Below, piece after piece: positions 3,935 through 24,092 of a stretch of 42,427 nt of DNA. Both the position numbers and the translations under genes were made by a program. The notes under the pieces are model-generated. The model made no database searches and had not been told where the DNA came from. It was given only the letters and a program-made list of their open reading frames with translations. The stretch's first letter is position 1. Each line of letters begins with the position of its first letter. This stretch comes from Candidatus Aminicenantota bacterium (GTDB lineage Bacteria; Acidobacteriota; Aminicenantia; JAMOAD01): positions 1 to 42,427 of the forward strand of contig JAMOUT010000054.1 in NCBI GenBank assembly GCA_027061995.1, in the 5' to 3' direction.

Positions 3935-4423
3935 TTATTTATCGTTCACTTTTTTTAATAAAAATTTAAGATCATCTATATCTTTATTCCTTCCTGCTAT
4001 TCTTTTGTTTGCTATTAGATCTTGTATTCCTATAAAATAGACAGGATAAATATTACCTTTAATTTTCAATTTTTCTTTTAATCTATTTTCCCACGCTTGA
4101 TTAAATGTAAATGGTTCAAGAGAATTTATCAAATCTATTCTATTAGGGGGTAAACCAAATTGAATAATCATATCTTTTTTCCTGATATCTTGAATAGAAT
4201 CAACATTAGGAATTAAACCACCCCAAAATTTTTTAAGAGCTTTAAACAGATTCTCAGTATTTTTATTATCAAGAGAATAATAAATATCTATATCACCGGT
4301 TAATCTTGTATGTCCATAGTATATAACCGCCTCCCCACCTACTATTAAATATTTTACATTACACTCCGCTAATAATTTCAAAAATTCCTTTATATCTTCA
4401 GAAAAATAATTAGGGTCTATCAT
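3935..4423 (-). CDS. Nucleotidyltransferase (AbiEii/DUF6036-like), second gene of a two-gene cassette
   Basis: 162 aa. The segment LIVGGEAVIYYGHTRLTGDIDIYYSL carries the minimal nucleotidyltransferase signature: GG, then an alpha helix, then a T-x-D-x-D metal-binding pair. Such proteins are found alone, as toxin components (AbiEii, MNT) or in DUF6036 families. A 58-aa charged protein is encoded just upstream and overlaps this start by 14 nt, so the two are translationally coupled, as in many toxin-antitoxin or MNT/HEPN-style pairs. The pair splits rmlC from rmlD and looks like an inserted accessory element. No HEPN domain is present. Activity is not known. Confidence 0.7.
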   Translation of the reverse strand: MIDPNYFSEDIKEFLKLLAECNVKYLIVGGEAVIYYGHTRLTGDIDIYYSLDNKNTENLFKALKKFWGGLIPNVDSIQDIRKKDMIIQFGLPPNRIDLINSLEPFTFNQAWENRLKEKLKIKGNIYPVYFIGIQDLIANKRIAGRNKDIDDLKFLLKKVNDK

Positions 4424-4623: not shown

Positions 4624-5199
4624 TTACCCCTTGTAAACAAAATTATCCGCTTCCGCTCTTTTTATCCATTCCTTGAGAGTTTGAGCTTTGCTATCCTTTT
4701 CCGATAGTATGGGTGTTTTAACAGGCCATTTTATCCCTATGTCAGAATCATTCCACAAAATACCCGATTCACAACCGTGATTGTATCTTCCTGTTACAAC
4801 ATATTGAACATCAACTCTATCCGAAAGAGCGGCAAATCCTCTCGCAAAATAAGCCGGAGCCCAAAGCATATATCTGTTTTCTTCCGAAGCTTCCACACCC
4901 ACCCATTCTCCGAGAGTGGGAGAATTTTTCCTTATATCGACAGCCACAAGAAAAGCATTACCTCTTGTAACTCTCATAAGTTTGCCCATAGGCGGATCCC
5001 ACTGAAAATGAAGACCCCTTATCACATTTTTTTTTGAAATAGAGTGATTCTCCTGAACGAATCTGTCGGGCAAACCGATCTCTTTAAAACTATCCTCTCG
5101 GAAAACCTCCATAAAAGAACCTCTTTCATCTTCAAATACTTGAGGCTCTATTAAAACAACCTCTCCGTTAAAATATTTTTCTTTAATATTAAATGGCAT
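4624..5199 (-). CDS. rfbC: dTDP-4-dehydrorhamnose 3,5-epimerase RmlC
   Basis: 191 aa cupin enzyme, typical length. It epimerises C3 and C5 of dTDP-4-keto-6-deoxyglucose before RmlD reduces the product. Diagnostic segments are the RGLHFQ strand with the catalytic His (residues 61-66), the metal-free cupin core around MRVTRGNAFLVAVDIRKNSPT, WAPAYFARGFAALSD (about 113-127, usually HGF; here RGF), and YVVTGRYNHG, which supplies the tyrosine region. It begins 4 nt after the GT2-TPR gene, so the genes are co-transcribed. The call is firm. The replaced His in the usual HGF motif is a minor variation. Confidence 0.95.
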   Translation of the reverse strand: MPFNIKEKYFNGEVVLIEPQVFEDERGSFMEVFREDSFKEIGLPDRFVQENHSISKKNVIRGLHFQWDPPMGKLMRVTRGNAFLVAVDIRKNSPTLGEWVGVEASEENRYMLWAPAYFARGFAALSDRVDVQYVVTGRYNHGCESGILWNDSDIGIKWPVKTPILSEKDSKAQTLKEWIKRAEADNFVYKG

Positions 5200-5203
5200 A
5201 TTA

Positions 5204-6871
5204 TTATTCCTCTCGGTTATTTGTCATATTTTCTAAATATTCCTTTGCTTTTTGATGATAATGATTTAATTTTAAAGCATCCTGAAAATATCCCTTTGCT
5301 TTTTCTTCATTATTCATCAAATAATAAATTTCTCCGATGTGAAAGTATATATTCGCTTCAAAAAAAGTGGTGTTTTTTTCTTTTAATAATGAACGAAAAA
5401 GGAGCAATGATTCATCATATTTCTTAATATACTTAAAGATGGAAGCTTTTCTGTATATATTTATTTTGTCATTTTTCAATTTTTTTAAATATTTTAAAGA
5501 TTTGTAAAATTGACTATACTCCCCTACAAGATCATAGATAATCAAAGCTTTCTTAAACAATAGTGAAAATTTTAATTCAGGGTCAATACTTTTTTTTCTT
5601 AAAATCATGTTCGCTATTTCAAAATATTTTTTATATTCTTTTTTTTCATAATATAAAAACAGTAGAAGAGTATAATCTTCCATCCTCTTAAATTTTAATT
5701 TATTAATCTTAGAAATAATTATATTAAGATATTTTTTCCCTGCTTTTGCATTTAATCTTTTTTCGGCCATATAAATTTTAGAAAGTGTTCGGATTTTCAT
5801 TCTAAGAAAAAAAGGATCCTTTCTTTTGTTTAACTTAACACTCTTTTTTAATAATAACAAACCTTCCCCGAACTTCTGTTCTTCGATTTTCTTTATCCCT
5901 GAAATATAATAAAAAAAAGATTTTATCCATTTATACCTTTTTGCCAAACAATCATTTTCAATATTTTTAAAAGAGCTCGTCTTTAAAACAATTAAATTTT
6001 CTTTATTTTTACAAGAAAATTTAATTCTGTGAAAAAAATCATCAAAAAACTCTTTTATGAATAATTTATTACTAAATTTGGTATCTCTAATATGAAAATT
6101 ATAATATTTCCCTTTTTCTTCAATAGTGTTGGGGATAAAATTAAAATCCTCCAAATCAAAAAGATAAATTGTTTCACAAAAATTATCCAAACTTGTATTA
6201 ATATTACTTGTGTTACCTTCATAAAAATAATTATAATACACATAATTTAAATATCTCAAATAAAATTCTATTTCATCATACCCATACCCTTTTTTATTAA
6301 TATCAATAAAATATTTACCGCTTTCAATATAAAACTTCTTTAAAAACAAAACTGTTCCCGTTAAATCAGAAAGTAAAGGGGAATAAGGAAGTATAGAGTA
6401 TTTATCTATATTTACCCCGAAATGAACTTTATAATAATCGTGCGCCTCAAGATAATTTGTATTTGATATTGGCACATTTGTCCAGAAAATCCCCCCTCTT
6501 TGGTATTCCCTTTTTATTCTCTTTAATATTTCTTTGTTTTTTATTATTATATCGGAATCAATCATAAAGATAAGTTCGGAATCGGAAGCATCAATCCCTC
6601 TGTTCCTTGCATCATTAAGGTTAAACAAAGGTTTGTTATCAACTTTCACAACTTTTATATCCTTTGCTTTTGAGTTTTTTAAGAATTCCTCCTTATTCCG
6701 TTTAACATAAGTTTCCGTTCCGTCAGGATCATCATAATCCACTATTATAATATCAAAATTACCATAATCAATTTTAAGCCAAGAAGGTAAGGCTTTTTTC
6801 AGATACTTTAACCTGCCTTTACAAGTAGTTACCAATGATACGGAAACTTGTTCAATAATCTCTTTATTCAT
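5204..6871 (-). CDS. GT2 glycosyltransferase fused to C-terminal TPR repeats
   Basis: 555 aa. Residues 11-110 show a GT-A family 2 core: VSLVTTCKGRLKYLKKALPSW, IIIVDYDDPDGT, NLNDARNRGID and the metal-binding DSD at 105-107 (FMIDSDIII). Residues about 310-555 are helical repeats of TPR type (for example YDESLLLFRSLLKEKN and IYFHIGEIYYLMNNEEKAKG followed by ALKLNHYHQKAKEYLE). It is predicted cytosolic, with no signal peptide or membrane segment. It probably moves a sugar from an NDP donor onto a glycan or protein acceptor; the TPR tail may hold the acceptor. It lies 3 nt after the radical SAM gene, which also carries a TPR-like part. Acceptor and sugar cannot be told from sequence. Confidence 0.85.
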   Translation of the reverse strand: MNKEIIEQVSVSLVTTCKGRLKYLKKALPSWLKIDYGNFDIIIVDYDDPDGTETYVKRNKEEFLKNSKAKDIKVVKVDNKPLFNLNDARNRGIDASDSELIFMIDSDIIIKNKEILKRIKREYQRGGIFWTNVPISNTNYLEAHDYYKVHFGVNIDKYSILPYSPLLSDLTGTVLFLKKFYIESGKYFIDINKKGYGYDEIEFYLRYLNYVYYNYFYEGNTSNINTSLDNFCETIYLFDLEDFNFIPNTIEEKGKYYNFHIRDTKFSNKLFIKEFFDDFFHRIKFSCKNKENLIVLKTSSFKNIENDCLAKRYKWIKSFFYYISGIKKIEEQKFGEGLLLLKKSVKLNKRKDPFFLRMKIRTLSKIYMAEKRLNAKAGKKYLNIIISKINKLKFKRMEDYTLLLFLYYEKKEYKKYFEIANMILRKKSIDPELKFSLLFKKALIIYDLVGEYSQFYKSLKYLKKLKNDKINIYRKASIFKYIKKYDESLLLFRSLLKEKNTTFFEANIYFHIGEIYYLMNNEEKAKGYFQDALKLNHYHQKAKEYLENMTNNREE

Positions 6872-6874
6872 TTA

Positions 6875-8086
6875 TTATCCTCCGGGAGAGGTGCACCTTT
6901 TACAAATAAAATCATCGGGAGAATCAATGCTCCCCAAAGCCATTTTCTGATATTTTGTGAACCGCTCAGAATTTAAAAGTTCTTCAAGAGAACCAAAATC
7001 ATTTACATTTCCCATAACCGTCTCTTTTTGGTAATCCATACAACATAAGATAATATCTCCGTCATACACAAAGTGAAGCCACTCTTTAATTCTCGGACAA
7101 GTTGGTTTTAATTTTCCTATCATTTTTAACGCTTTATCATTCGTTATCTTCTCCTCAATATTCCCTGCTCTATCATGATAATAAAATGTTTTAATATTAA
7201 TATTATTTATATTAATATCAACTGCGGACTCCCTTATTATATTATAAAAGAAATCTTTCGCTCTTTTTTCCGCTGTAATCCGTTTATCATTCAATTTACT
7301 CCCGACTATCGTATTAATGGATGTTTTTAATTCCCCTTTTGTAATCTTAAAATAATTAATTAAGTTTTCCCTGTTTTTATAAAAATCGAATCCCATTATC
7401 TCTTTATATGATTTTTCATCAATACCATGCCAAGAGATCCAAATTTCATGAGGGGTATTCTTCATTAATTCAAACAGATTCTGAATTTTTTCTTCATTCA
7501 ACATGGATAAATTTGTCGATAGCTCTATGAATTTATACTTCAACCTGTTTTTCACTATTTTAATTTTTTCAAATAGATCTTTATCCAAAAAAGGTTCGTT
7601 TTCAAGATATAAACATAATTTTCCAAGAGGGATATTTTCAAGTAAATTCACGATATGTAAAAAAGTTTTACTATCCATTGTTCCCGGATGATGTTTTTGC
7701 CATGAACCATGGTAAGGACACATCTTACACTTTGCATTACAGGTTGATACTGTTTGTATCTGGATATTCAAAGGGAATCTTTCGAAAAATTGTCTAATAA
7801 CTCCGGTTTTGTCCTTTCGTAACCTATTTATATTATTTTCAGTTAACAAACTTAACAAATTATTAGCCATTCTTTGTTCGGGATTTAATTCAATAGACAT
7901 CCTTAACATATCTTTTTTAACATCCGAATCAGGCTCCATTTGTGCGAGATGATAGTAAATATTGGAGCTTATTATTTTATTATCTGATTTCTTTAATAAC
8001 TCGGAGAACATATCTTTTGATTTTTCAAATAAACCGTTTTTTTGCAATAAAGAAGCTTTTCCGTATTTTTTTATAAATTCATCCAT
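6875..8086 (-). CDS. Radical SAM protein with SPASM-like C-terminus and N-terminal TPR-like region
   Basis: 403 aa from the ATG at 8086. I prefer this start to the longer one at 8107 because GAGGGA lies at good spacing before it and it overlaps the upstream stop by 8 nt. The Cx3Cx2C cluster site reads STCNAKCKMC (Cys 116, 120, 123) and binds the [4Fe-4S] that cleaves SAM. The end contains CPRIKEW, ILCCMDY and ICKRC, a SPASM-like set of extra cysteines for auxiliary clusters. About 90 N-terminal residues are helical and TPR-like. SPASM proteins modify peptides, proteins or sugars. In this locus it sits between a DUF115 transferase and a GT2, so a role in sugar or glycoprotein modification is the simplest inference. 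Confidence 0.85.
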   Translation of the reverse strand: MDEFIKKYGKASLLQKNGLFEKSKDMFSELLKKSDNKIISSNIYYHLAQMEPDSDVKKDMLRMSIELNPEQRMANNLLSLLTENNINRLRKDKTGVIRQFFERFPLNIQIQTVSTCNAKCKMCPYHGSWQKHHPGTMDSKTFLHIVNLLENIPLGKLCLYLENEPFLDKDLFEKIKIVKNRLKYKFIELSTNLSMLNEEKIQNLFELMKNTPHEIWISWHGIDEKSYKEIMGFDFYKNRENLINYFKITKGELKTSINTIVGSKLNDKRITAEKRAKDFFYNIIRESAVDININNINIKTFYYHDRAGNIEEKITNDKALKMIGKLKPTCPRIKEWLHFVYDGDIILCCMDYQKETVMGNVNDFGSLEELLNSERFTKYQKMALGSIDSPDDFICKRCTSPGG

Positions 8087-9155
8087 TATTTCCCTCAAAT
8101 AAACCATTATAATCAGCCAATGGAAAAACTTTTAGTTTGGTTCCCGGAGTTGCATTATATACCTTGATTCCTTTTTTATCCAAGAATTTTTTTGCCGAGA
8201 TATAAGCCTTTTCCATTCTATCAAGCCGCGGATCATGCCATTTTCTTCCTTCTCCAAAATAATCGGGATGGAAATGATTAGGATCATCCCCATGAGAAAT
8301 CCATTCGACTTCACTTTTACCATAAGTGATATGTTTCGGCTTTTTATAACTATAATCAACACCTATCATATATATCGGGTTACACCCCATTATCGCCGCA
8401 AGTTGAAGCATTAAATATGTAACTGTCCCACCCCAATAAAGTTCGCACCACTCATCGGAGAATAGAGGTCCCCCCTCTTCAAAATCATTTCTTTTAAAAT
8501 TAATATTAACAATATTATCAAAGTTTTCAATCAGGTGAGCTAAATCATTCGGAATAAACTTAATAATATTGCTCAATTTGTTCCACTCAAAAGCAATATC
8601 TTCGGCCACCAATTTATCCTCTATTGTCCAATATTTTAAATTCAACTTCCATTTTTTAAAACCGAGATAAATTCTATTAGCTCCGATTGTTATCTCTTTT
8701 TGAAGTTTATTCATATCTATCAGATTCAAGCTCGGGCCGTTTCCTATGACAAAACATCTTTTGCCTTTGTGTATATTTTTAAATTGTGATAACTTTTTAA
8801 TCCTATACTCCATATTATTTGTAATATAAAAAGGGATTCCTTTGTTTTTTAAGTAAGCCATAATCTCGTTCAATTGTTCAACAGGTTTTGAAGAAGCTAT
8901 AATCACAGGGATATTCTCAATGTCCTTATAAGGATTCATTATCTTAAGATTTAAAAATTCACCACTCTTGTAAGAATCATAAAAATTTTCAATGATAATA
9001 CCACTCCCTTCAAGCAGATGAAAAACCATTTTCCCACTTAACCCCGCTCCCCATATTGCAACTCTATTTACACCATCTCCTTTTAAAACACTTAACATAT
9101 ATTTCCTTGCTTCAACAAAATCTTCCATTATATTATTAACAATTATTCTTTTCAT
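8079..9155 (-). CDS. DUF115/Maf-like glycosyltransferase with N-terminal Rossmann domain
   Basis: 358 aa. From about residue 128, GKRCFVIGNGPSLNLIDMNK and the following GANRIYLGFKKWKLNLKYWT match the DUF115 (MptE-like, PF01973) fold. This fold is found in Campylobacter Maf proteins that place nonulosonic acids on flagellin and is structurally related to GT42 sialyltransferases. Residues 30-115 form a nucleotide-binding-like domain (NRVAIWGAGLSGKM ... FYDSYKSGEFLNLKI), the same as in the polyol-phosphate transferase at 1457-2986. The CMP-sugar synthetase at 12376 could supply the donor. The start at 9155 follows GAGGTAA at good spacing. Family call is firm; substrate is inferred. Confidence 0.8.
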   Translation of the reverse strand: MKRIIVNNIMEDFVEARKYMLSVLKGDGVNRVAIWGAGLSGKMVFHLLEGSGIIIENFYDSYKSGEFLNLKIMNPYKDIENIPVIIASSKPVEQLNEIMAYLKNKGIPFYITNNMEYRIKKLSQFKNIHKGKRCFVIGNGPSLNLIDMNKLQKEITIGANRIYLGFKKWKLNLKYWTIEDKLVAEDIAFEWNKLSNIIKFIPNDLAHLIENFDNIVNINFKRNDFEEGGPLFSDEWCELYWGGTVTYLMLQLAAIMGCNPIYMIGVDYSYKKPKHITYGKSEVEWISHGDDPNHFHPDYFGEGRKWHDPRLDRMEKAYISAKKFLDKKGIKVYNATPGTKLKVFPLADYNGLFEGNNG

Positions 9156-9161
9156 TTTGAC

Positions 9162-9911
9162 TTACCTCGCAAAAATAGGATCATGCAGAACATTCCCGAT
9201 TCCTCCGTCAACATTTAAAACCGACCCTGTTATAAAACTCGCCATATCCGATGCTAAAAAAAGAGCCGCCTTTGCTACCTCCTCCGGATTCGCTATCCTT
9301 CCGAGAGGATGATATTCCCCCAAAGTTTTTAATCCTTTAGGATTATCTTTAAATCCATCCCTTAACATAGGGGTATCTGTCGCGGCAGGGACTATCGCAT
9401 TTATCCTGACTTCCGGAGCCAATTCAAGGGAAAGCACTTTGGTAAGGGCTACAAGAGCTCCTTTGCTTGTTGCATATACGGTAAACTTTGCCTTTGTAAG
9501 ATAAGTGTGAATACTTGCAATATTTATTATACTCCCGTTGTTCTTTCTCAACTCTTTTTCAAATCCTTGAATTAACCAAAAAGGGGCAAGCAGATTTGTA
9601 TCAAGAGTTTCTTTCCAATCATTATATTCAATATCTTTAATTTTTTTAATTATCTGAATGGCTGCATTATTAATTAAAACAAAAAGTTTTCCTTTGGTCA
9701 TATCTTTCACTCTTAGAAAAAAACTCTTTTCCCCCTCATCCTTACCTCCGAGTTTACTAATATCGTATTGTATAAAATCAAACTTCTCTTTAGTGTTTGC
9801 AATCTTTTCACGATCCACACCTATAACATTATAACCATTTTTCAGGAAAATATCACACAAGGCACCACCGATACCTCCGGCAGCACCAGTAATAAGTGCA
9901 TATTTTTTCAT
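9162..9911 (-). CDS. SDR-family NAD(P)-dependent oxidoreductase
   Basis: 249 aa classical short-chain dehydrogenase. It shows the TGAAGGIG cofactor loop (residues 8-15), NNAA (81-84), Ser133 in NIASIH, and the catalytic Tyr146/Lys150 in YATSK, then the PG-like IVPAATDTPM region. These enzymes oxidise or reduce a hydroxyl/keto group, often on a sugar or sugar acid. Its start overlaps the stop of the hydroxyacid dehydrogenase by 4 nt (ATGA), so the two act in one operon, plausibly in the same short pathway that feeds the CMP-sugar synthetase. The exact substrate is not deducible. Confidence 0.9.
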   Translation of the reverse strand: MKKYALITGAAGGIGGALCDIFLKNGYNVIGVDREKIANTKEKFDFIQYDISKLGGKDEGEKSFFLRVKDMTKGKLFVLINNAAIQIIKKIKDIEYNDWKETLDTNLLAPFWLIQGFEKELRKNNGSIINIASIHTYLTKAKFTVYATSKGALVALTKVLSLELAPEVRINAIVPAATDTPMLRDGFKDNPKGLKTLGEYHPLGRIANPEEVAKAALFLASDMASFITGSVLNVDGGIGNVLHDPIFAR

Positions 9912-10846
9912 CTCACCTCCTTCAAACCTTTTAATAACATATTTATACTATTCTCATGGACTTTTTCCCAATATTTAGAGCTACTGTTCGCATTATGAGA
10001 AGCCAATAAAACATTGTGCATACTTCTTAAAGGATTATCAATCGGCAGAGGTTCTTTTTCAAAAACATCAAGTGCCGCACCTTTAAGAAAATTATTTTCA
10101 AGGGCATAAATCAAGTCATTTTCTTTTATAATAGGTCCTCTCGCCGTATTTATTAAAACAGCCGATTTTTTCATCAATTTCAGTTTTTCCATATCAAGCA
10201 AATGATGACTCGAACTATTTAAATCACAATTTACGGAAATAAAATCGGATTTTTTTAGTAAATAATTCAGTTCCACCATCTCAATATTATACCTTCTAAT
10301 TATTTTATCGGAAATTTTCTTAATATCATTACCATAAATTTTCATACCGAAAGCATTGGCTTTTTTCGCAACCATACTTCCGACATTCCCGACACCTATA
10401 ATCCCAAGACTTGACTCGTTTAATGACAATCCTCTCAACTTTTGCCATCTTCCCTTTTTCATTAAATCGTCAAGTTCCACTATTTTTCTCGCAAAAGCAA
10501 GCATATAAGCCATAACAGTATCAGAAACAGGCTCGGAAAACGCATTCGGAGTATTATAAACCTTTATCCCATTTTTCTCGGCATAGAGTTTGTCGATGGA
10601 ATCCATCCCTGTTCCCCACTTTACAATCACTTTAAGTTTATTTGCATTATCAATCACCTTCTTCGTAAACCTATCGTCTCCGCATATTACTCCGTCAATA
10701 TCCCGTATCTGCTTTATTAATTCTTTTTCCTCTAAGCGCTCGTTTACTTTCGGAATTATAATATCCATATTGTTCTCTTTAAAAATGTCTCTGTATCTAT
10801 CAATCTCCAAAATCATATAGGGAGCGGAAATTAATATTTTTAACAT
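9908..10846 (-). CDS. D-isomer-specific 2-hydroxyacid dehydrogenase
   Basis: 312 aa, typical length for the SerA/LdhA-like family. The NAD-binding domain has GIIGVGNVGSMVA (GVGNVG 151-156), NTARGPIIKENDLI, and ASHNA near residue 284 with the catalytic His. Residues 76-107 (KWGTGMDSIDKL ... YNTPNAFSEPVSD) form the usual substrate-domain segment with the conserved N-P-A/V-like pattern. It interconverts a 2-keto acid and a D-2-hydroxy acid. The neighbours (cyclase, SDR, CMP-acid-sugar synthetase) suggest a sugar-acid precursor rather than serine biosynthesis. It overlaps the SDR by 4 nt and starts 1 nt after the cyclase stop. Confidence 0.9.
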   Translation of the reverse strand: MLKILISAPYMILEIDRYRDIFKENNMDIIIPKVNERLEEKELIKQIRDIDGVICGDDRFTKKVIDNANKLKVIVKWGTGMDSIDKLYAEKNGIKVYNTPNAFSEPVSDTVMAYMLAFARKIVELDDLMKKGRWQKLRGLSLNESSLGIIGVGNVGSMVAKKANAFGMKIYGNDIKKISDKIIRRYNIEMVELNYLLKKSDFISVNCDLNSSSHHLLDMEKLKLMKKSAVLINTARGPIIKENDLIYALENNFLKGAALDVFEKEPLPIDNPLRSMHNVLLASHNANSSSKYWEKVHENSINMLLKGLKEVR

Positions 10847-10847
10847 T

Positions 10848-11480
10848 CTATCTATCCTCCTCTATAAGAAAAGCTCGTGCGGGAAGAGCTTCAACATTAT
10901 TTATTTTCATCGGGATTGCATATAATCGATATATCCCTTCTTTAATGTTTTCCAGATATAACCCCTCGAGAATAAGTATATTATGACTTAACAATGCTTT
11001 GTGAACGGGAAATTCACTATTACCTTGTTTTTCTATTGAAAGATAATCAATACCAACCAATTTCAAATGTTTATCAATTAAATAATTCGCTCCCGAAGAA
11101 TCAAGACAAGTATAATGATTTGAAAAATTGCTCAGTTTATATAATATATTGTTTTTTGTTTTAAAAAGAATCCCCTCCACTGTCTCGGGTATTTTGATTT
11201 GTTTTAACACTTTATTATTGATAATATCTTTTTTTATTTCCACCACCAAAACATCCATTATAAAATGATCAATAGTATAATCATGAGATTTTTTCCCATC
11301 TTCGAGAAAATGATATGGAAAATCAATATGGGTTCCTGTGTGTAAATCCATTCTTATAAAAGATGTATTAGATAAGTCGCCAGCTTCTATCTTTGAATAT
11401 CTCTTAATTTCAGGCTTAAAATCATCTTCCCACACAACAATATTATCATCCACAGGCATCGAAATATCAAAAATCTTCAT
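10848..11480 (-). CDS. Cyclase/kynurenine-formamidase-like metal hydrolase
   Basis: 210 aa. The segment MDLHTGTHIDFPYHF (residues 44-58; H47, H51, D53, H57) is the metal-binding HxGTHxDxPxHF motif of the PF04199 cyclase family, whose members hydrolyse or cyclise amides, lactones or formamides using zinc or manganese. LEGLYLENI and LPARAFLIEE at the end match the usual family C-terminus. Its position between a GT2 (4-nt overlap) and a hydroxyacid dehydrogenase suggests opening or closing of a lactone or lactam in a sugar-acid route. That is inference; tryptophan catabolism genes are absent. Confidence 0.85.
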   Translation of the reverse strand: MKIFDISMPVDDNIVVWEDDFKPEIKRYSKIEAGDLSNTSFIRMDLHTGTHIDFPYHFLEDGKKSHDYTIDHFIMDVLVVEIKKDIINNKVLKQIKIPETVEGILFKTKNNILYKLSNFSNHYTCLDSSGANYLIDKHLKLVGIDYLSIEKQGNSEFPVHKALLSHNILILEGLYLENIKEGIYRLYAIPMKINNVEALPARAFLIEEDR

Positions 11481-12379
11481 CTTCTTTTGTTCGGATAATA
11501 AAATATGTTTTTCAGCTCTTTTGTTACATTATCCTTATGTTTCGCTCCATCATAAGTTCCTTTGAACTGGTTATATCTATACAAAATTATCTCCCTTATC
11601 CTAAGTTTCCCCTCCCGTAGAGAGTGAAAAAAATCCATTGTCGTGTTTAACAAGAAATATTTTAAAAAAGAAAAAAAGCCGAATTTTTGTTCCGGAAATA
11701 TTTTATAAAATGCCATTGCTTCTCTTTTATATCTATTCTTTATTTGTTTCCATGTTTCATTATGAATATGTAAAACTTCCGCTTTGGAACTATAATAAAT
11801 CAAAAAACCCTTATCAAGCACTTTTTTTGCCCAATCAAGGTCTTCAAGACCCGTAAGAGTTTCATCATATTTACACTCTTCCCATATATTTTTCCTTATT
11901 GCCGTATTTGCATTGTTAGAAAACGGATGATTTTGAATCCCGTCGATATTCTCGGGATACCATTTTTTAAAAATCTCCTTTTCAGAAAATTTTGACATAT
12001 CCCCTCCCCTTTGTTTTCCATAAACCAAACCAATCCTCTTATTTTTTAAAAGGGGAGTTACTAATTCTTCTAACCATTTCTCATTTACGGGAAAACAATG
12101 AGCACTTATAAAAACACATATTTCCCCCGAGGCTTGTTCGATACCTTTATTCAAAGAATATCCGAAAGAAAATTCCTCGGGTTTAATATTTATGATTTTA
12201 ACATCAAATTGTTTTGCAATCATAATTGTTTTGTCTATGGAGCCTGAATCAACCACTATTATTTCATAATCATAAGAAAGTTTCTGCCGTTTTATTAAGG
12301 ATAAAAGTTTCCCTATATTATTTTCCTCATTATATGCTCTTATTATTATCGAAATCAATATTTCTTCTTTTTTTTTCAT
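11477..12379 (-). CDS. GT2 glycosyltransferase
   Basis: 300 aa. It opens with ISIIIRAYNEENNIGKLL and IIVVDSGSIDKT, the GT-A family 2 signature, followed by FSFGYSLNKGIEQASGEICVF and the acceptor-side segment ALTGLEDLDW-like (ETLTGLEDLDWAKKVL) containing the catalytic ED. No membrane segments are visible. It resembles rhamnosyltransferase-like GT2 enzymes of O-antigen loci. It overlaps the CMP-sugar synthetase upstream and the cyclase downstream by 4 nt each, so all three are coupled in translation. Donor may be rhamnose or the CMP-sugar; sequence does not settle this. Confidence 0.88.
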   Translation of the reverse strand: MKKKEEILISIIIRAYNEENNIGKLLSLIKRQKLSYDYEIIVVDSGSIDKTIMIAKQFDVKIINIKPEEFSFGYSLNKGIEQASGEICVFISAHCFPVNEKWLEELVTPLLKNKRIGLVYGKQRGGDMSKFSEKEIFKKWYPENIDGIQNHPFSNNANTAIRKNIWEECKYDETLTGLEDLDWAKKVLDKGFLIYYSSKAEVLHIHNETWKQIKNRYKREAMAFYKIFPEQKFGFFSFLKYFLLNTTMDFFHSLREGKLRIREIILYRYNQFKGTYDGAKHKDNVTKELKNIFYYPNKRR

Positions 12380-13050
12380 TTTTCCACACTGATTTTCATT
12401 ATTGATTCGGCGATTCTGAAATCGAACAAATCATCAATATCAACAGATTCAAGCTTATTGACTTCAAACATAAACGGTGTATCTCCTATTCTTAATTCTT
12501 TTTTTAGAAATGATTGTTTTGAAAAAATATAAAAATTGGAATTTTCTTCAAAAAGAGGACTAAGATCTTGCGTTCTTATTAATTCCGCAGGATTATGATT
12601 TATAGGGTTTCCTGATAAATCATAAAACCTTGATTGATACCTTGTAACAGAAAAGACAGAATCAAATTTATCCGTATTTTTAAAATACAGCTCTATCGCA
12701 CTATTTATTGTCTCGGGTTTTAACAAAGGATTGGTTGCATGTGTCTGTATAAAATATTCATTATCAAAATTTCCGATTATATTTTTGATGATTTTATTAA
12801 CGGAAACAAAATCCCCCTTTAAATTATCCGGTCTCATTGAAATAACCACATCAAAATATCTCAGAACCATATCAGCTATTTGTTCACAATCAGTATCAAC
12901 GATTATCTTTGTTATTCTATCAATTTTCTTAAGGGTGTTTAGAATCCAGTAAAATAAGGGTTTGCCCGCAAAATCCCTAATGTTTTTGTTGGGAACTCTT
13001 TCAGAATGACATTTCATCGGAATTATTGCATATAAAATATTATTTTTCAT
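12376..13050 (-). CDS. Acylneuraminate/CMP-sugar cytidylyltransferase (NeuA family)
   Basis: 224 aa from the second ATG at 13050. I prefer it because GGAG lies 9 nt before it and only 3 nt before the first ATG at 13056. The N-terminus AIIPMKCHSERVPNKNIRDF is the CTP-binding motif of the NeuA/KdsB family (usually A-x-(3)-R-x-S-x-R-x-P-x-K-N; the first Arg is replaced here). GKPLFYWIL, FIQTHATNPLL, and DIDDLFDFRIAE near the end are also typical. It makes a CMP-activated acidic sugar such as sialic, legionaminic or pseudaminic acid, or an octulosonate. The absence of NeuB/NeuC-like synthases nearby leaves the sugar open. Confidence 0.88.
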   Translation of the reverse strand: MKNNILYAIIPMKCHSERVPNKNIRDFAGKPLFYWILNTLKKIDRITKIIVDTDCEQIADMVLRYFDVVISMRPDNLKGDFVSVNKIIKNIIGNFDNEYFIQTHATNPLLKPETINSAIELYFKNTDKFDSVFSVTRYQSRFYDLSGNPINHNPAELIRTQDLSPLFEENSNFYIFSKQSFLKKELRIGDTPFMFEVNKLESVDIDDLFDFRIAESIMKISVEK

Positions 13051-13145
13051 TCTCATAAACTCCGTATTTAATAAAAAATAAAATAAATTTCATAATCCCG
13101 TCCATACATATATTAATAAAATAAATTTCAGCTATTTCCGAATTA

Positions 13146-15866
13146 TCAAACATTTTTAATCTCATACACTAAAATTCGTTTTATTGCCGAGTTATAAATA
13201 TAAAGGAAACCATTGTATTCGATTCTTAGAAAAGTGTTTATCTCCTGATTCAATCTAATAGTGAAAAGCAGATTATCGTTCTTTATATGGTAAAGTTTGT
13301 TATTTATGGAAACAAAGTATTCATCCTTATCCGAAAAATGAAAAGAATCTATTTTCGGAGCCCCTCCCATAATCTTTTTCCTTTTGAAAACACCGTCATT
13401 CAAATCAATATAGCCGATACAAGGTTCCCCCCCGCAATCTCTGAAACCTACCACAATCTCTTTTCCGAAAAAATTCAAACCTTCGGGAAATTTATAATCT
13501 TCGTTGTGGTATGTCATAACTTTTTTGTTCTTTTCATCGATCACATATATAACAGAGCTGCGGTAATCAATAAAAAAGATATATCCCGATTTATAAAACA
13601 CCCTTCCTCCGTGTTTTATCCCTGAAAATCCATTTAAAATCCTTTCTTTATCCGTTTTAAAATTATATTCGATTAATCTTAATTTTTCACCGTCTCTATC
13701 ATTGTATAACAACCTATTATTGTCTTTATCATAAAAAATCGAACTCAATGATTTCATCCCTTTTATATCTTTTTTTAAGATATTTACTTTTTGACTTACC
13801 AAATCATATGAATATATCGTTGTTTTCGGTTCCTGGGGATTATCACCCCTATCACTTAGAAAAACAGTATTATCCGCGACAGTAAAATCAATAATCGGAC
13901 ATTTTAAAAAACTTAATTTGTAAGAGTTTCTCAATTTCATATGAACGGATCCGTTTTCCTCTCTGTTGCTTATTAATAAAACATTACCGGTAGATACAAT
14001 TTTGGCATAATGATCATCTCCCCCGTTATCAGTTTCCTTTAAAGACTTTGTTAATAAATCCCCCGCAAATTGTGAAAACAAAAATCTTTCATGATCACCG
14101 ATATCCTTTTTATTTCCTTTTAGTAAATATTTCTTTTGGGTATCCAAATATTCCATTAAAAGTTTTTTTTCCTTTTGTAAATATAATGATTCATAGTCAC
14201 ACATATTTAAAACATAGGAAAAATGTCTTACTTCATCAATCTTTAATCCCGAATGATAAAGAATTTTCCAAACAAATATAATCTTTTTAACATCTTTCTT
14301 TGAAATAAAAATTAATCCGTCTATTAAATATGAAACAATATTATCGGAATAAAAATCACTTTTTATCTCATGACTCATATTTATAATAAACAGAATATTC
14401 AAAAATTTCTCATGGAAAAAAAAAGTATGGTTTTTTTTAAGAAAAGATAGTTTTTTCCCTATTTCATCCGTTTGTCTTTGGTTAATAATAGCCCTTATAT
14501 AAATAGGATATATCTTATCATAAAACCAATATTTCTCACTATATTGATAACCTATCCCGTATAAATATTTTTTTGAATTATTCTCAACCATTTTCACCTC
14601 GGCAAGGATTAAAAGTGCAATTTTCATTTTCAAAAAAGTTGAGGAAAGATTTTCAAAAATTTTTTTTATAAATTTTTCTTCATTAAATAGTTTTGTAAGC
14701 TCATGTTCGTTCTTTGATGTTTTATGAAAAAAGATTAATAATTCAACATACTCATAGGGTTTTTTATCTTTTATTAAGGGGCCATAATTTTTTAATATTT
14801 TATCAGTTAAATCTGATTCATCCCTTTTAAGATGCCATTGCGCTCTTTCCAACAATAAATTCGCTCTATTCTTTTTCACAATAATATTTTCATTATCATC
14901 CATTGTTTTAATAAGATAATCGGTAATATTCTTATTATTAAATTCCGAATTTGACAACAGGCTCAGAGAAACCTCGTATAAATCCTCTTTTTTAACAAAT
15001 TCAAATATTTTTTTAATCTCTTCCAAATCACTTAACATATCAACTATTGAAATTATTTTACGATATTTTACTATCATTAATGCAAATTTTATCCAGTGCA
15101 TCGGGTTTTCTTTTAATAACACCGCTTTGTTTTTTATCAATATCTCTTGCGCTTTAATTAATTCTTTTTGCCTGATTAATAATTTAATTTCATTAAATAT
15201 AATAATTTCAATTTTTATCTTATTCTTTATCTTAGGGATTAAATTTTTATAAAAATCAAACAATTTCTCCTTAACTTCATTCTTTTCAAGCATAATAAAA
15301 TTCAAAAGAAGATTCAATGCATGATAATGGTCAACCGGAGAGGTAAAGTTTTTAAAAAGCTCCGATATTTTATCTTCACCATCCAATTCGGCTTCCGGGT
15401 TTGAACTGAGAATATAATCAATTATTTTCTCATAAAAGAATAGATCGGGATAATAGGTGATTTTATATTTTGTATTAAAAGAGATTCCCATTATTTCAAG
15501 AACTGACAATAACCAAAAGGTAAAAAGCCTCCTTGGTTCACCTTTAAACACAGGAAATTCTTTTTCATGTTCCATTTGCTCGGTTTTTAATTTTTCAATG
15601 TATTCCTTATCATCCGAGGATAATCCATGGTATCGCAAACTTTCTCTGAACATGGCAAGGTTTTTATCGATTTCCAATTTATTATTAATAAATAGTTCAT
15701 CCTCAGCAAAGGCTGCTTTGGATTCATACCTGAAAGAGAGCTCATATCCGTTTTCAAACAATGGATAAATCTCTTCCGCTGTTTTTTGCAGTGCTTTTTT
15801 CGTAATCTTTTTTTTGCTGTCTATTAACTTAAAATCAAGATTTTCCAAATTGATTGTTTCTATCAT
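13146..15866 (-). CDS. Large helical-repeat protein with C-terminal beta-propeller, unknown function
   Basis: 906 aa, no signal peptide. Residues 1-610 are mostly helical and charged, with TPR-like or HEAT-like pairs (for example ENIIVKKNRANLLLERAQWHL, LLILAEVKMVENNSKKYLYG). Residues about 620-906 are strand-rich with repeated blade-like units: GNVLLISNREENGSVHM, DNTVFLSDRGDN, DNNRLLYNDRDGEKLRL, GYIFFIDYRSSVIYVIDE, KEIVVGFRDCGGEPCIGY, DEYFVSINNKLYHI. I do not recognise the family. The closest architecture is a TPR-plus-propeller scaffold as in glycan-locus proteins. The start overlaps the stop of the degenerate nucleotidyltransferase by 4 nt. It sits 90 nt before the CMP-sugar synthetase, so a link to the glycan locus is likely but unproven. 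Confidence 0.7.
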   Translation of the reverse strand: MIETINLENLDFKLIDSKKKITKKALQKTAEEIYPLFENGYELSFRYESKAAFAEDELFINNKLEIDKNLAMFRESLRYHGLSSDDKEYIEKLKTEQMEHEKEFPVFKGEPRRLFTFWLLSVLEIMGISFNTKYKITYYPDLFFYEKIIDYILSSNPEAELDGEDKISELFKNFTSPVDHYHALNLLLNFIMLEKNEVKEKLFDFYKNLIPKIKNKIKIEIIIFNEIKLLIRQKELIKAQEILIKNKAVLLKENPMHWIKFALMIVKYRKIISIVDMLSDLEEIKKIFEFVKKEDLYEVSLSLLSNSEFNNKNITDYLIKTMDDNENIIVKKNRANLLLERAQWHLKRDESDLTDKILKNYGPLIKDKKPYEYVELLIFFHKTSKNEHELTKLFNEEKFIKKIFENLSSTFLKMKIALLILAEVKMVENNSKKYLYGIGYQYSEKYWFYDKIYPIYIRAIINQRQTDEIGKKLSFLKKNHTFFFHEKFLNILFIINMSHEIKSDFYSDNIVSYLIDGLIFISKKDVKKIIFVWKILYHSGLKIDEVRHFSYVLNMCDYESLYLQKEKKLLMEYLDTQKKYLLKGNKKDIGDHERFLFSQFAGDLLTKSLKETDNGGDDHYAKIVSTGNVLLISNREENGSVHMKLRNSYKLSFLKCPIIDFTVADNTVFLSDRGDNPQEPKTTIYSYDLVSQKVNILKKDIKGMKSLSSIFYDKDNNRLLYNDRDGEKLRLIEYNFKTDKERILNGFSGIKHGGRVFYKSGYIFFIDYRSSVIYVIDEKNKKVMTYHNEDYKFPEGLNFFGKEIVVGFRDCGGEPCIGYIDLNDGVFKRKKIMGGAPKIDSFHFSDKDEYFVSINNKLYHIKNDNLLFTIRLNQEINTFLRIEYNGFLYIYNSAIKRILVYEIKNV

Positions 15867-16117
15867 AACTCGTCCGATAAAAGAGCTATTACAGGCTCGG
15901 TGTCGGCTTCAACGCAACTACTCTTCGGGAGTAATGCAAAAAAGGGATATTGTCCCTTTTTAACATCTTTAAGATTCAAACCTAATACAATATCAATGAC
16001 TTTTGTAAAACAAGACTCGCCGTATAAAAGAACCGCTTGTCCCCCTATCATCTGAAAATCAGCTTCCTCACCATTAAATTTTTTACCGCTTCTTTTAATA
16101 ACTTCTTCAAATATCAT
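15863..16117 (-). pseudogene. Truncated nucleotidyltransferase remnant
   Basis: 84 aa open frame. The N-terminal half (MIGGQAVLLYGESCFTKVID) matches the GG...TxDxD nucleotidyltransferase start seen in the gene at 3935-4423, but the first catalytic Asp is Val (TKVID instead of TKDID) and the homology stops after about residue 50. The remaining 34 residues do not look like the family. Length is about half of a normal member. I read it as a decayed copy. Its 4-nt overlap with the 906-aa gene may keep it translated as a coupling leader. Confidence 0.6.
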
Positions 16118-20402: not shown

Positions 20403-21062
20403 ATGTTGAAAATCCATGAAATTCGTAGCACAAAAAACATGAGAGGTTTTACCTTAATTGAGATGGTTGTCGTTCTTTCGGTAGTTGCTATTCTTGCGGC
20501 AATCCTAACACCCACAATTATGAAAAACATCAATGATTCTAAAATAGCAAGAGCGAATAATGAGGTTCAGGTAATAGCCGCCGCTATGGCATCTTTTTTC
20601 AAAGATACGGGAAGATGGCCCACCTCGAACGGAACAGCGGGAAATCCTGATTATCTTTATATTCTACATGGCCCGTCAACCGCTAATGATATGAATCCGG
20701 GAAGTTATTCCTCTTATTGGGGAAAAGGTTCCGCATGGAGCAATAGAAAAGATCTTTTCGAGAATCATCTTATGAGAAATCAACCAGGCATAAATGGAAC
20801 ACCGGGGGGAACAGTTTACGGAACAACAGGTGAATTAAAATGGAATGGTCCTTACTTAACAAGTCTGAAACCTGATCCGTGGGGAGTCCTTTACTCCTGT
20901 AATGTTATCAGTCTATGGTATACAGGCGGAAACTATAAATATTACGGAGTCTTTGTCTTGTCCGCAGGCCCTGATAAAGTCGCTCAAACATCCTTCGCTC
21001 AGGACTATAGGACAACAACGCCCACAACAGGCGGTGATGACATAGGTGTAAGGATTAAATAA
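20403..21062 (+). CDS. GspG/PilA-like pseudopilin 1
   Basis: 219 aa. The class III leader ends MRG and prepilin peptidase would cut before FTLIEMVVVLSVVAILAAIL, with the Glu at +5 present. The leader is long (about 15 residues), starting MLKIHEIRSTKN behind a clear GGAGG. The soluble part contains RWPTS, WNGPYLTSLKPDPWG and SAGPDKVAQ followed by GGDDIGVRI, matching the major pseudopilin GspG layout with its calcium-site loop and terminal D-D-I. It is an inner-membrane subunit of a type II secretion-like pseudopilus or type IV pilus. No assembly genes are in the window. Three further pseudopilins follow in tandem. Confidence 0.88.
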   Translation: MLKIHEIRSTKNMRGFTLIEMVVVLSVVAILAAILTPTIMKNINDSKIARANNEVQVIAAAMASFFKDTGRWPTSNGTAGNPDYLYILHGPSTANDMNPGSYSSYWGKGSAWSNRKDLFENHLMRNQPGINGTPGGTVYGTTGELKWNGPYLTSLKPDPWGVLYSCNVISLWYTGGNYKYYGVFVLSAGPDKVAQTSFAQDYRTTTPTTGGDDIGVRIK

Positions 21063-21075
21063 TACCAATGAGGAA

Positions 21076-21666
21076 ATGAGAAAAGGTTTTACCCTTATAG
21101 AAGCGATGATTGTTTTATCAATAATTGCGATTCTCGGGGCTGTTCTTGTTCCGGGAATTGTAAAAAACATGAATGATGCCAGAATATCCCGTGCAAAAGA
21201 TGATGTTCAAACACTCGGGAAGATGATGCTTCAAGCAAGAGATGATATGGGTATATGGACTACGGTAAACAGAAATAACCAAAACTCCGCTCTGTTAATA
21301 GGAACATCTCCCGATCCCGATGCTTCCGCAATTCCATTATCAAACACCGGAATAAGCTCGTGGAACAGAACCCCCATGGAATCATTTTGGTGGGAGCTTG
21401 TCAATGTAAACAATAGTTATAAGAAAATAGATACTAACCCACATAATCTCCCGAGCTGGAAAGGGGCTTATCTAACGGAGATTAAACTCGACCCGTGGGG
21501 TAATCCTTATCTTTCCAATGTAGCATACCTCTCAAATGGTTCAACCCCCGATAATACGAGAAAAGTATGGATAATTTCAGCGGGAACAAATAATCTTATG
21601 GATACTAATTTTGAAGGAACCGCATTGCAAACAGGCGGAGATGATATAGGGTTTGCAATTCAATAA
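21076..21666 (+). CDS. GspG-like pseudopilin 2
   Basis: 196 aa. Short leader MRKG, then FTLIEAMIVLSIIAILGAVL with Glu at +5. The C-terminal half has WKGAYLTEIKLDPWGNPYLSN, IISAGTNNLMD and GGDDIGFAIQ, the same GspG-type end as pseudopilin 1. The helix after the membrane part (SRAKDDVQTLGKMMLQARDD) is also shared. It begins 13 nt after the first pseudopilin, with GAGGAA before the ATG. It is probably a second major-type subunit or an alternative filament component. Confidence 0.88.
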   Translation: MRKGFTLIEAMIVLSIIAILGAVLVPGIVKNMNDARISRAKDDVQTLGKMMLQARDDMGIWTTVNRNNQNSALLIGTSPDPDASAIPLSNTGISSWNRTPMESFWWELVNVNNSYKKIDTNPHNLPSWKGAYLTEIKLDPWGNPYLSNVAYLSNGSTPDNTRKVWIISAGTNNLMDTNFEGTALQTGGDDIGFAIQ

Positions 21667-21687
21667 TAAATAAGAGGAGTTTTTCTT

Positions 21688-22818
21688 ATGAAAAACAGAG
21701 GCGTAACCTTAATAGAGGTTATTATCATAATAGGGATTATAGCTATACTTGCGGGAGCTCTATCACCCCTTATATACAAGACAACCGAAACAGCTCGATA
21801 TAAAAGAGCTCAAAAAGAGATTGGGTCGATATATGAAGCTATTACGGGAGATAGCAACAATTACTTCGGTTATATAGGGGATATGGGAAAATTCCCCGAT
21901 CCATTAACTCAACTTTACATTAAATCAACTCAACCGAATCCTATGGAAAATCCGGCCGGTTCGGGAATTTTCGCAGGTTGGAGAGGTCCTTATATATCTC
22001 CCACGAACTCGGATACCAACGGGATTAAAGACCCTTGGGGAAACTATTATCTTCAAGTATTCAATGCATGGGGAAATAATAACAGATGGATGCTTGTCTG
22101 CTCGGGAAAAGACGGACAATTCGATAATACAAATCCGAATGCTTTGGTTAACAAAGATAATTTGTATTATCCTAACGAACCTCTTCAAATAAACAGTTAT
22201 ACAAACGGTAGCGGCAATACGATACACACGATTCTTAATTCGGTTATCGTTAATGTATCCCTTTCAAGCAGTTCGATAAAACCCCTTAGAGTAAAATTCA
22301 CTTTGTATGATGTCCGTGAAGGGGGGCAAAATATTTTTTACGGAATAGGAAACCAGGGAGTCTTCAATAGTATTGTAATAGGTAATAAAGTTGTTGACGC
22401 AAATTTTATTCTTGATGACGGAACTATCATTAATTCTTCATCAGTCAGAAAATTTATAAACCTGCAACAATATAATCCTCAATCAGCTGAAATTCAGATT
22501 AATAGTTCACCGGAAGCTCTTTGTCTTATAACCACCACATACGGAGGATGCGGATTAAGCTCCAACTTTACCCTTGACTCGACTTTTAACCGAGCGGGCA
22601 ATATATGTTCAGGCTCCGATCTTAATAATCTTCCGAATTACTCGGTATATTTCGAGGGATACAATGCCTCCGGCGAAAAGATATGGGGTCCTATTGAGAT
22701 GATGAGATATGGTTCCTCACCCCATTTCAGATTTCAAACAACAGACAGCCCCTGCGGAATAAAAACAATCAGATTTTTTTCAACCGGAGGGGGGGCGACA
22801 ATAACAAGAAACTTCTAA
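21688..22818 (+). CDS. GspG-like pseudopilin 3 with extra C-terminal domain
   Basis: 376 aa. Leader MKNRG, then VTLIEVIIIIGIIAILAGAL; residue +1 is Val rather than Phe, which prepilin peptidases tolerate in some minor pilins. The GspG-like part (about 1-165) includes WRGPYISPTNSDTNGIKDPWG and CSGKDGQFDN. About 200 further residues form a strand-rich domain absent from pseudopilins 1 and 2, ending KIWGPIEMMRYGSSPHF and TIRFFSTGGGATITRNF. The stop overlaps the next start by 1 nt. Pseudopilin 4 has the same architecture, so the pair is a recent duplication. The extra domain could form a filament tip or bind substrate. Confidence 0.85.
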   Translation: MKNRGVTLIEVIIIIGIIAILAGALSPLIYKTTETARYKRAQKEIGSIYEAITGDSNNYFGYIGDMGKFPDPLTQLYIKSTQPNPMENPAGSGIFAGWRGPYISPTNSDTNGIKDPWGNYYLQVFNAWGNNNRWMLVCSGKDGQFDNTNPNALVNKDNLYYPNEPLQINSYTNGSGNTIHTILNSVIVNVSLSSSSIKPLRVKFTLYDVREGGQNIFYGIGNQGVFNSIVIGNKVVDANFILDDGTIINSSSVRKFINLQQYNPQSAEIQINSSPEALCLITTTYGGCGLSSNFTLDSTFNRAGNICSGSDLNNLPNYSVYFEGYNASGEKIWGPIEMMRYGSSPHFRFQTTDSPCGIKTIRFFSTGGGATITRNF

Positions 22819-24092
22819 TGTCCGATAAAAAAGGGTTCGCTCTAATTGAAGTAATTATTATAGTAGCTGTAATAGGTATTCTTGCGGGCATTCTATCACC
22901 TCTGTTATACAAATCATCGGAAGCCAATAAAACAAAAATCGTTAAACGGGAACTGGAGAAGATATATAGAGCCTGCATAGGAGATATGCAAAACAATTTC
23001 GGTTATCTCGGAGATATGGGAAAACTACCGGATAGTTTAACGGATCTTTACATACAGGGTTCCCAACCATCTCCGACCGAACATCCTGCGGGCTCAGGTA
23101 TTTTTGCAGGGTGGAAAGGACCTTATACCGATATTAAAAACAGTGATTCGGGAGGAATAAAAGATCCTTATGGAAATTATTATCTTCAGTTTTATTTACA
23201 ACTGAACTCAAATAATCCATGTTCAAACTCGGATACAAAATGCAGATGGTTTATAATGTCAACGGGAAAAGACGGAAACTATGATTCATCCAATCCTCTT
23301 GATACATCATCAAGTAATAATAGGGATAACATATATTTTCCCTCAACACCTGTGATTATAGACCGAGCGGGTTCCGTAAATACTATTTATTCATCAATAA
23401 CATTAAAAACAATAATAGCGAGATCTAAAGCGGCCACTTCAAAAAATATTAATTTTACTGTATATTACCCTAACAGTGGTTCACCCGCATATCTAACATC
23501 AAACTTTATAAATCCCGTTTCTTTTACCATCCCCGTGGGAAACAGATTCGTGGAATCATATATAATTAATGATAACGGGAATACTCTTTTGCCTAATATT
23601 GGCAAAAGTATTATTTTTTTGCCTGATGCAAATAAAATCGAATACCTTAAATTCAATACAACTCTTGAAAACTTAAATATAATAAATTTAACCCTTACAC
23701 CGCAAGTTTGTCCTGCTTCAACATGTATATCACCCTGTAATACCATATGCTGTAACTCTTCCATGACACAATGCACAAACTCCCCGTCTCAGCTATTGCA
23801 ATGTCATCTCACCGGTTGTTATGCCTTGTGTTGCACAGGTTCTGGAAGTTCAGGCTGTTCCATAAATGCGGCCGTAGATTCTTCCCTGAATGTTAATGGA
23901 ATCATTCCCGGATTCGACCTCTATATAGAGGGCTATGATCAAAACGGAGTTAAATTATTAGGACCGATAATTATGCAAAAAAACAGTTCCTCCCCTTTTT
24001 TCAGTTATACAAATAATAGTGCCGATTGCAATATAAGAACCTTTGTTATATATTCGAGTGGCGGCGGTGGTAGCATAACAAAAAACAGTTAG
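22818..24092 (+). CDS. GspG-like pseudopilin 4 with cysteine-rich insert
   Basis: 424 aa. Leader MSDKKG, then FALIEVIIIVAVIGILAGIL. It is colinear with pseudopilin 3 (WKGPYTDIKNSDSGGIKDPYG, STGKDGNYDS, ending GGGSITKNS) but carries an insert of about 50 residues at about 296-345 with eleven cysteines (CPASTCISPCNTICC ... QCHLTGCYALCC). In pseudopilin 3 the same place has one cysteine. Such density suggests disulfide-bonded loops exposed outside the inner membrane, or metal binding. It is the last gene of the pilin group. The segment is in frame, and flanking homology on both sides argues against a sequencing artefact. Confidence 0.85.
   Translation: MSDKKGFALIEVIIIVAVIGILAGILSPLLYKSSEANKTKIVKRELEKIYRACIGDMQNNFGYLGDMGKLPDSLTDLYIQGSQPSPTEHPAGSGIFAGWKGPYTDIKNSDSGGIKDPYGNYYLQFYLQLNSNNPCSNSDTKCRWFIMSTGKDGNYDSSNPLDTSSSNNRDNIYFPSTPVIIDRAGSVNTIYSSITLKTIIARSKAATSKNINFTVYYPNSGSPAYLTSNFINPVSFTIPVGNRFVESYIINDNGNTLLPNIGKSIIFLPDANKIEYLKFNTTLENLNIINLTLTPQVCPASTCISPCNTICCNSSMTQCTNSPSQLLQCHLTGCYALCCTGSGSSGCSINAAVDSSLNVNGIIPGFDLYIEGYDQNGVKLLGPIIMQKNSSSPFFSYTNNSADCNIRTFVIYSSGGGGSITKNS

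Follow-up and report, generated by a model that had tools for sequence, protein, structure and literature searches.

A conserved gene cassette around a divergent NeuA-like synthetase, without NeuB, predicted to serve a CMP-activated sugar acid in Candidatus Aminicenantota

Known sugar acids activated with cytidine monophosphate (CMP) are built by aldol-type condensation (NeuB, KdsA). Here we describe an operon in which a NeuA-like CMP-sugar-acid synthetase of a divergent subfamily stands without NeuB among a GT2 glycosyltransferase, a PF04199 hydrolase, a D-2-hydroxyacid dehydrogenase (2HADH), a short-chain dehydrogenase/reductase (SDR) and a DUF115 protein, on contig JAMOUT010000054.1 (C54) of a Candidatus Aminicenantota bacterium (GCA_027061995.1). 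The whole contig of 42,427 nucleotides (nt) is the window of this analysis, and its genome (G000) comprises 2.36 Mb in 104 contigs at 95% completeness. What follows supports well that the cassette is real and conserved and that it activates a sugar acid with CMP in the absence of NeuB, the acid itself being predicted. According to one account of the nonulosonic acid (sialic, legionaminic or pseudaminic; nab) clusters, no gene other than NeuB is shared by all pathways and species (PMC7371886), and by that statement the cassette fails the feature defining such clusters, because this gene is missing from it. It shares with them NeuA-type CMP activation (PF02348 with a CMP-Kdn synthetase fold, although the N-terminal motif diverges), a likely CMP-sugar transferase fold and a glycan gene setting, whereas in NeuB's place it has 2HADH with SDR and PF04199, or 2HADH with an HpcH aldolase. 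The Kdo pathway (KdsA, KdsB) likewise activates a 2-keto sugar acid with CMP, but the cassette showed no KdsA and a kdsA/kdsB-like locus lies separately on contig C12 (names by eye), so that Kdo synthesis was set aside. Oxidative sugar catabolism by D-xylose 1-dehydrogenase and a lactonase resembles the cassette in its SDR and lactonase, which lead from aldose to aldonate and overlap as a gene pair on a Thalassovita plasmid; the cassette, however, would by our proposal supply an acid for activation with CMP and for a glycan, not for breakdown, and has PF04199 in the window as against SMP-30 on the plasmid. The closest known kind is the CMP-ulosonic acid pathways. An Escherichia coli K3 capsule with a 4-deoxy-2-hexulosonic acid appears among the references of PMC10433991. 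Searches of an open-access library listed no paper whose title or abstract opening describes this gene set, which need not mean that none is in print.

The genes that make up the core of the operon are as follows.

12376..13056, minus strand: NeuA-like CMP-sugar-acid synthetase, divergent subfamily (PF02348, 106 bits; motif PMKCHSERVPNKN)
11477..12379, minus strand: GT2 glycosyltransferase paired with NeuA (PF00535, 80 bits)
10848..11480, minus strand: PF04199 metal-dependent hydrolase (PF04199, 64 bits), proposed aldonolactonase
9908..10846, minus strand: 2HADH (PF02826, 192 bits), proposed aldonate 2-dehydrogenase
9162..9911, minus strand: classical SDR (PF13561, 158 bits), proposed aldose 1-dehydrogenase
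8079..9155, minus strand: DUF115/MptE-like protein of 358 residues (PF01973, 47 bits), proposed CMP-sugar transferase

An original prediction from the sequence had named these six genes with their families, and open reading frames (ORFs), Pfam and NCBIfam matches confirm all of them on the minus strand. Its contacts of 1-4 nt hold for four junctions, namely the 4-nt overlaps of NeuA with GT2, GT2 with PF04199 and 2HADH with SDR and the 1-nt gap between PF04199 and 2HADH, while SDR and DUF115 are separated by 6 nt.

A gene-neighbourhood search for the set, which had been suggested as a check, was run on 15 loci with a window-type NeuA and 15 control cytidylyltransferase loci. 2HADH is found at none of the controls and at 14 of the 15 test loci, where it lies within about 3 kb of NeuA; these loci come from several phyla and include plasmids and a viral contig; the only test locus lacking it is L077, where NeuA has no partners. 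NeuB, on the other hand, occurs at 0 of the 15 test loci and at 8 of the controls. Test loci also carry DUF115 (10), a GT2 of the window's kind (8), classical SDR (7), PF04199 (6), HpcH aldolase (5), extended SDR (4, one of which, at L106, is a GalE-like protein), HAD phosphatase (3) and gluconolactonase (2), while the controls gave SDR three times, extended SDR once, and PF04199, HpcH, gluconolactonase, HAD, GT2 or DUF115 at none of the 15. The presence of PF04199 in the window and in L030, L035 and L036 is by construction, because these four were not found via NeuA (the last three were reached through PF04199); the 11 loci reached by NeuA alone hold 2HADH in 10, DUF115 in 7, GT2 in 6, SDR in 5, HpcH in 3, and PF04199 and gluconolactonase in 2 each. 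The counts are to be read against a design in which controls were hand-picked from lower-scoring matches (eight annotated plasmid hits, six genome-search loci and, from the window's genome, an SpsF-like gene that the NeuA query did not match), some being contig ends; neighbour queries came from the test loci and the NeuB query was the own genome's NeuB alone; L071, L073 and L074 are close relatives and not independent; and L032 and L033, which have 2HADH and PF04199 with no window-type NeuA in view, were excluded from the 15. The full set recurs in two genomes from other families of the phylum (G404 and G273), in the complete order GT2-PF04199-NeuA-2HADH-SDR. The constancy of the NeuA and 2HADH pair suggests that 2HADH acts close to the activated acid.

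The window NeuA belongs to a distinct cytidylyltransferase subfamily, which plasmid records label only as acylneuraminate cytidylyltransferase family. It starts with PMKCHSERVPNKN instead of the usual PAR.GSKR.P.KN, its relatives reading PM(K/R)xxSERVPGKN or near variants, and its best NCBIfam model, PseF, is matched at 102 bits, under the cut-off of 205.7. K24 and N25 of the KN motif and D206 and D208 of the C-terminal DxD are invariant among 10 of 10 aligned sequences in two alignments, and we take the KN lysine and the DxD to be catalytic. The AlphaFold2 model (pLDDT 91) is nearest to CMP-Kdn synthetase (9t4z, TM 0.86) and then to CMP-NeuAc and CMP-Pse synthetases. As for distribution, 4 of 148 genomes in the class of G404 have matches of at least 330 bits, the next match being at 116; the class of G116 gave one in 38 genomes (344 bits, next 155); and a phylum draw of 396 genomes gave five above 190 bits, the own genome included, with the next at 99.5. 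The NeuA tree, whose bootstrap did not converge, gives a weak separation of test from control sequences (66/84). A search of a phage collection for NeuA of the L035 type led nowhere.

The other end of the proposed route is represented by the DUF115 protein, which passes PF01973 (47 bits against a cut-off of 34.6). The best fold for its model (pLDDT 71) is the Maf glycosyltransferase 5mu5, with a Foldseek E-value of 8e-7 and a VIA Z of 15.8 (root-mean-square deviation 4.0 over 197 residues), and residues about 115-357 next resemble MptE (Z 12.2) and the CMP-sialic acid transferases Cst-I (Z 12.0) and Cst-II (Z 11.4). The model thus supports a CMP-sugar transferase fold, the activity being putative. 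The predicted fold is what it shares with Maf flagellin glycosyltransferases and GT42 sialyltransferases, from which it differs in its extra N-terminal Rossmann-like domain and in its polysaccharide-type operon; no flagellar genes were noticed among the ten window proteins scanned. A TagF-like glycerophosphotransferase-type protein at 1457-2986 of the window has an N-terminal domain resembling, by eye, that of the DUF115 protein. The original prediction of an acidic sugar activated with CMP, not made by NeuB and moved by the DUF115 enzyme is supported in part by the carrier genomes free of NeuB (G273, G487), by the Maf/sialyltransferase fold and by the NeuA fold, DUF115 being the likely transferase and GT2 another candidate for that step.

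The cassette has two flavours, one with an HpcH aldolase and another, that of the window, with SDR and hydrolase. The former is arranged as NeuA-HpcH-extended SDR-PF04199-HAD-2HADH in the Bacteroidota loci L035 and L036, as HpcH-NeuA-2HADH-HAD on an Acuticoccus plasmid and as HpcH-NeuA-2HADH at a contig end in G487, and on a viral contig (L106, IMGVR_UViG_3300005077_001133, 7959-10352) NeuA, HpcH and 2HADH stand in a row with glycan-like genes around them, so that the virus may supply or alter an acidic sugar. All five HpcH proteins match HpaI/GarL/RhmA pyruvate aldolase models below their cut-offs. On two alphaproteobacterial plasmids a lactonase of another family, SMP-30, seems to take the place of the window's PF04199. 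In Thalassovita, an SDR gene overlaps an SMP-30/gluconolactonase gene (PF08450, 234 bits) about 6 kb from GT2-NeuA-2HADH, and the best model for this SDR is D-xylose 1-dehydrogenase (280 bits against a cut-off of 400); in Sulfitobacter, an SDR 64% identical to that of Thalassovita and an SMP-30 gene lie apart from each other, at most 6 kb from NeuA. The 2HADHs of nine loci lacking HpcH, the window's included, form one clade (100/98) separate from the HpcH-linked enzymes and from the included genomic paralogues, but the module members need three changes on this tree and not one, so that a single origin is not shown. The NeuA tree departs from the split in flavour, which suggests that modules were exchanged and that the acids made by the two flavours may be similar. 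Two further arrangements were seen. G273 has, besides its window-type set, a second one of 2HADH, extended SDR, cytidylyltransferase with a canonical NeuA-type start and HAD (L147, G273:C14, 8391-11480). In a Chitinophagaceae genome (L033, 3963-6415), HpcH and 2HADH flank a cytidylyltransferase that is by eye KdsB-like and not NeuA-like, and the same partner genes may therefore serve with two kinds of CMP-ulosonate synthetase.

Activation of a 2-keto sugar acid with CMP without the help of NeuB is, in our judgement, probable. As to how the acid is made, the operon may encode oxidation steps that yield, independently of NeuB, a 2-ulosonic acid to be activated with CMP and built into a surface glycan, a reading to which we give somewhat less than an even chance. 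The SDR would oxidize an aldose at C1 to an aldonolactone, the PF04199 hydrolase would open the lactone to the aldonate, and 2HADH would oxidize C2 to give a 2-ketoaldonate, which would cyclize to a ketose acid. This acid would then be coupled to CMP by the divergent NeuA, and transfer of the sugar to the glycan would fall either to the Maf/sialyltransferase-like DUF115 enzyme or to the GT2 paired with NeuA. The SDR and hydrolase of the window and the SDR and lactonase genes of the Thalassovita and Sulfitobacter plasmids point to the sequence aldose, lactone, aldonate, 2-ketoaldonate, CMP; its substrates and order are what we infer from these sets, and we rate this order as tentative, distinctly short of an even chance. 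In the wider and rather doubtful form of the proposal, the cassettes would define CMP-sugars of a class in which the activated acid, a 3-hydroxy 2-ketoaldonate, comes from stepwise aldose oxidation and not from condensation of a sugar with phosphoenolpyruvate or pyruvate; these would be used in surface glycans of several phyla, with an aldolase-based sister version also on a viral contig. If a NeuB-free route is true, genome surveys based on NeuB overlook a group of acidic surface sugars, and a cytidylyltransferase subfamily annotated only by family gains a function. The route is open to direct test in Thalassovita gelatinovora and Sulfitobacter sp. D7, named strains that bear the genes.

The three enzymes proposed for these steps retain the expected motifs. 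The PF04199 protein keeps the metal-ligand motif HxxTHxDxPxH with a later H and E, as do 8 of 8 aligned homologues; a search for it in viral contigs led nowhere. 2HADH has the Arg and His that we presume to be catalytic, and the SDR has YxxxK and TGxxxGIG. Several observations nevertheless weigh against the oxidative route. The SDR and PF04199 matches fall under the curated cut-offs for function: the SDR scores 176.9 bits with its top NCBIfam model, glucose 1-dehydrogenase (cut-off 215), and 166.7 bits with the next, aldose dehydrogenase (cut-off 341), and the PF04199 protein scores 128.6 bits against the arylformamidase/KynB equivalog TIGR03035 (cut-off 223.05) and has kynurenine formamidases as its best solved relatives (4 of 8 hits). 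The SDRs of G404, G273 and G357 best match a generic SDR model, those for aldose or glucose dehydrogenase ranking lower. In Gemmobacter and Pararhizobium, the loci have GT2, NeuA and 2HADH but gave no match to SDR, PF04199 or SMP-30 over the whole 141-kb plasmid p5 or in the 45 kb read, their other replicons not being searched. In G004, a PF04199 gene stands beside a homologue of the 906-residue protein encoded upstream of the window NeuA (ORF906), with no NeuA of the window type within the 20 kb read. Finally, of the five aldolase-type loci, three have NeuAs that are 49-56% identical to the window NeuA (the other two being at 39 and 42%), as against 39-42% for the NeuAs of window flavour from other families; by this nearness its substrate may be made by an aldolase.

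On such an account, which we regard as unlikely, the acid would be a 2-keto-3-deoxy sugar acid formed by an HpcH/HpaI-type aldolase from pyruvate and an aldehyde and then treated by a phosphatase, the window genome's aldolase gene lying elsewhere and 2HADH, SDR and PF04199 preparing the aldehyde or finishing the side chain. The five loci with HpcH beside NeuA and 2HADH and the aldolase models matched there speak for it, as does the NeuA tree, along which the nearest sequence to the window NeuA from outside its family is L077, followed by three NeuAs from HpcH loci. It is opposed by the absence of HpcH from the stretches read of all nine window-flavour loci, and by 2HADH, which an acid so made does not need and which is yet the most constant partner. 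Nor does a hidden aldolase appear in the own genome, where the one clear HpcH-family (PF03328) protein sits in a citrate-lyase-like operon and a second protein, below the family cut-off, is PtsI-like (both by eye).

The alternative that the window NeuA activates an ordinary nonulosonic acid made by the genome's single NeuB, the other genes serving otherwise, turns on where NeuB occurs, and we consider it quite improbable. As originally noted, the gene set has neither NeuB nor NeuC; searches of the own genome with PF03102 and PF02350 found none on C54. One NeuB lies on another contig (G000:C87:50627-51328), one PF02350 epimerase on C19, and at least one NeuB is held by 5 of the 7 carrier genomes, the window's own included, while no canonical-type NeuA was found in the own genome at its 95% completeness, all of which would fit this alternative. 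The original prediction had also held that NeuB or NeuC homologues elsewhere, together with normal sialic or legionaminic acid, would count against it, and the first half of this is what the genome contains. However, G273 (99% complete) and G487 (96%) carry the window-type NeuA and no NeuB genome-wide; conversely the sister genome G001 has the same NeuB (55%) with no match to the window NeuA or PF04199 protein, so NeuB and the cassette occur independently; and no test locus has NeuB. In both G000 and G003, moreover, NeuB neighbours a nucleotidyltransferase with a CBS-like N-terminus (by eye) on a contig other than that of the cassette, and the SpsF-like gene could serve it, presumably after the model of the SpsE/SpsF pairing. 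The other PF02348 genes of the own genome are KdsB-like, SpsF-like and one weak match (names by eye). The ordinary sialic or legionaminic pathway was set aside, NeuB being missing from the loci and from two of the seven carriers.

There is little to recommend a route in which SDR, 2HADH and PF04199 would modify some other sugar with a hydroxy-acid or amide group, leaving the CMP-sugar step to NeuA, GT2 and DUF115 only: the formamidase relatives of the PF04199 protein and the best matches of 2HADH, phosphoglycerate dehydrogenase and glyoxylate reductase, would suit it, but 2HADH is tied to NeuA by its place within about 3 kb of it at 14 of 15 loci across phyla, plasmids and the viral contig, some of them lacking both SDR and PF04199.

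The genes that flank the core on both sides are listed here.

13146..15866, minus strand: ORF906, 906-residue protein with no Pfam match, 89 nt upstream of NeuA
6875..8107, minus strand: radical SAM/SPASM protein (PF04055 and PF13186)
5204..6871, minus strand: second GT2 (PF00535, 45 bits), with weak C-terminal TPR matches below cut-off
4624..5199, minus strand: RmlC, dTDP-4-dehydrorhamnose 3,5-epimerase (PF00908, 204 bits), a glycan context

Transcription on the minus strand runs in the order ORF906, NeuA-like, GT2, PF04199, 2HADH, SDR, DUF115, radical SAM/SPASM, GT2, RmlC. The DUF115 and radical SAM genes overlap by 29 nt, and from NeuA through RmlC every junction is an overlap of 4-29 nt or a gap of 1-6 nt. 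The same ten genes are collinear in G003, of the same family and another genus, at 32-80% protein identity (SDR 80%, 2HADH 68%, NeuA 66%, DUF115 66%, radical SAM 64%, PF04199 58%, second GT2 46%), and because this order is kept the gene run is more than chance. Homologues of ORF906 adjoin PF04199 genes in G003 (L030:7654-11025) and in G004 (L031:7618-9848, 535 residues). Upstream of ORF906, a short nucleotidyltransferase-like frame at 15863-16117 looks by eye like a shortened relative of the 162-residue protein at 3935-4423. Further along the window, four prepilin-like proteins are encoded in tandem at 20403-24092, with N-termini that by eye are of the type IV pilin kind.

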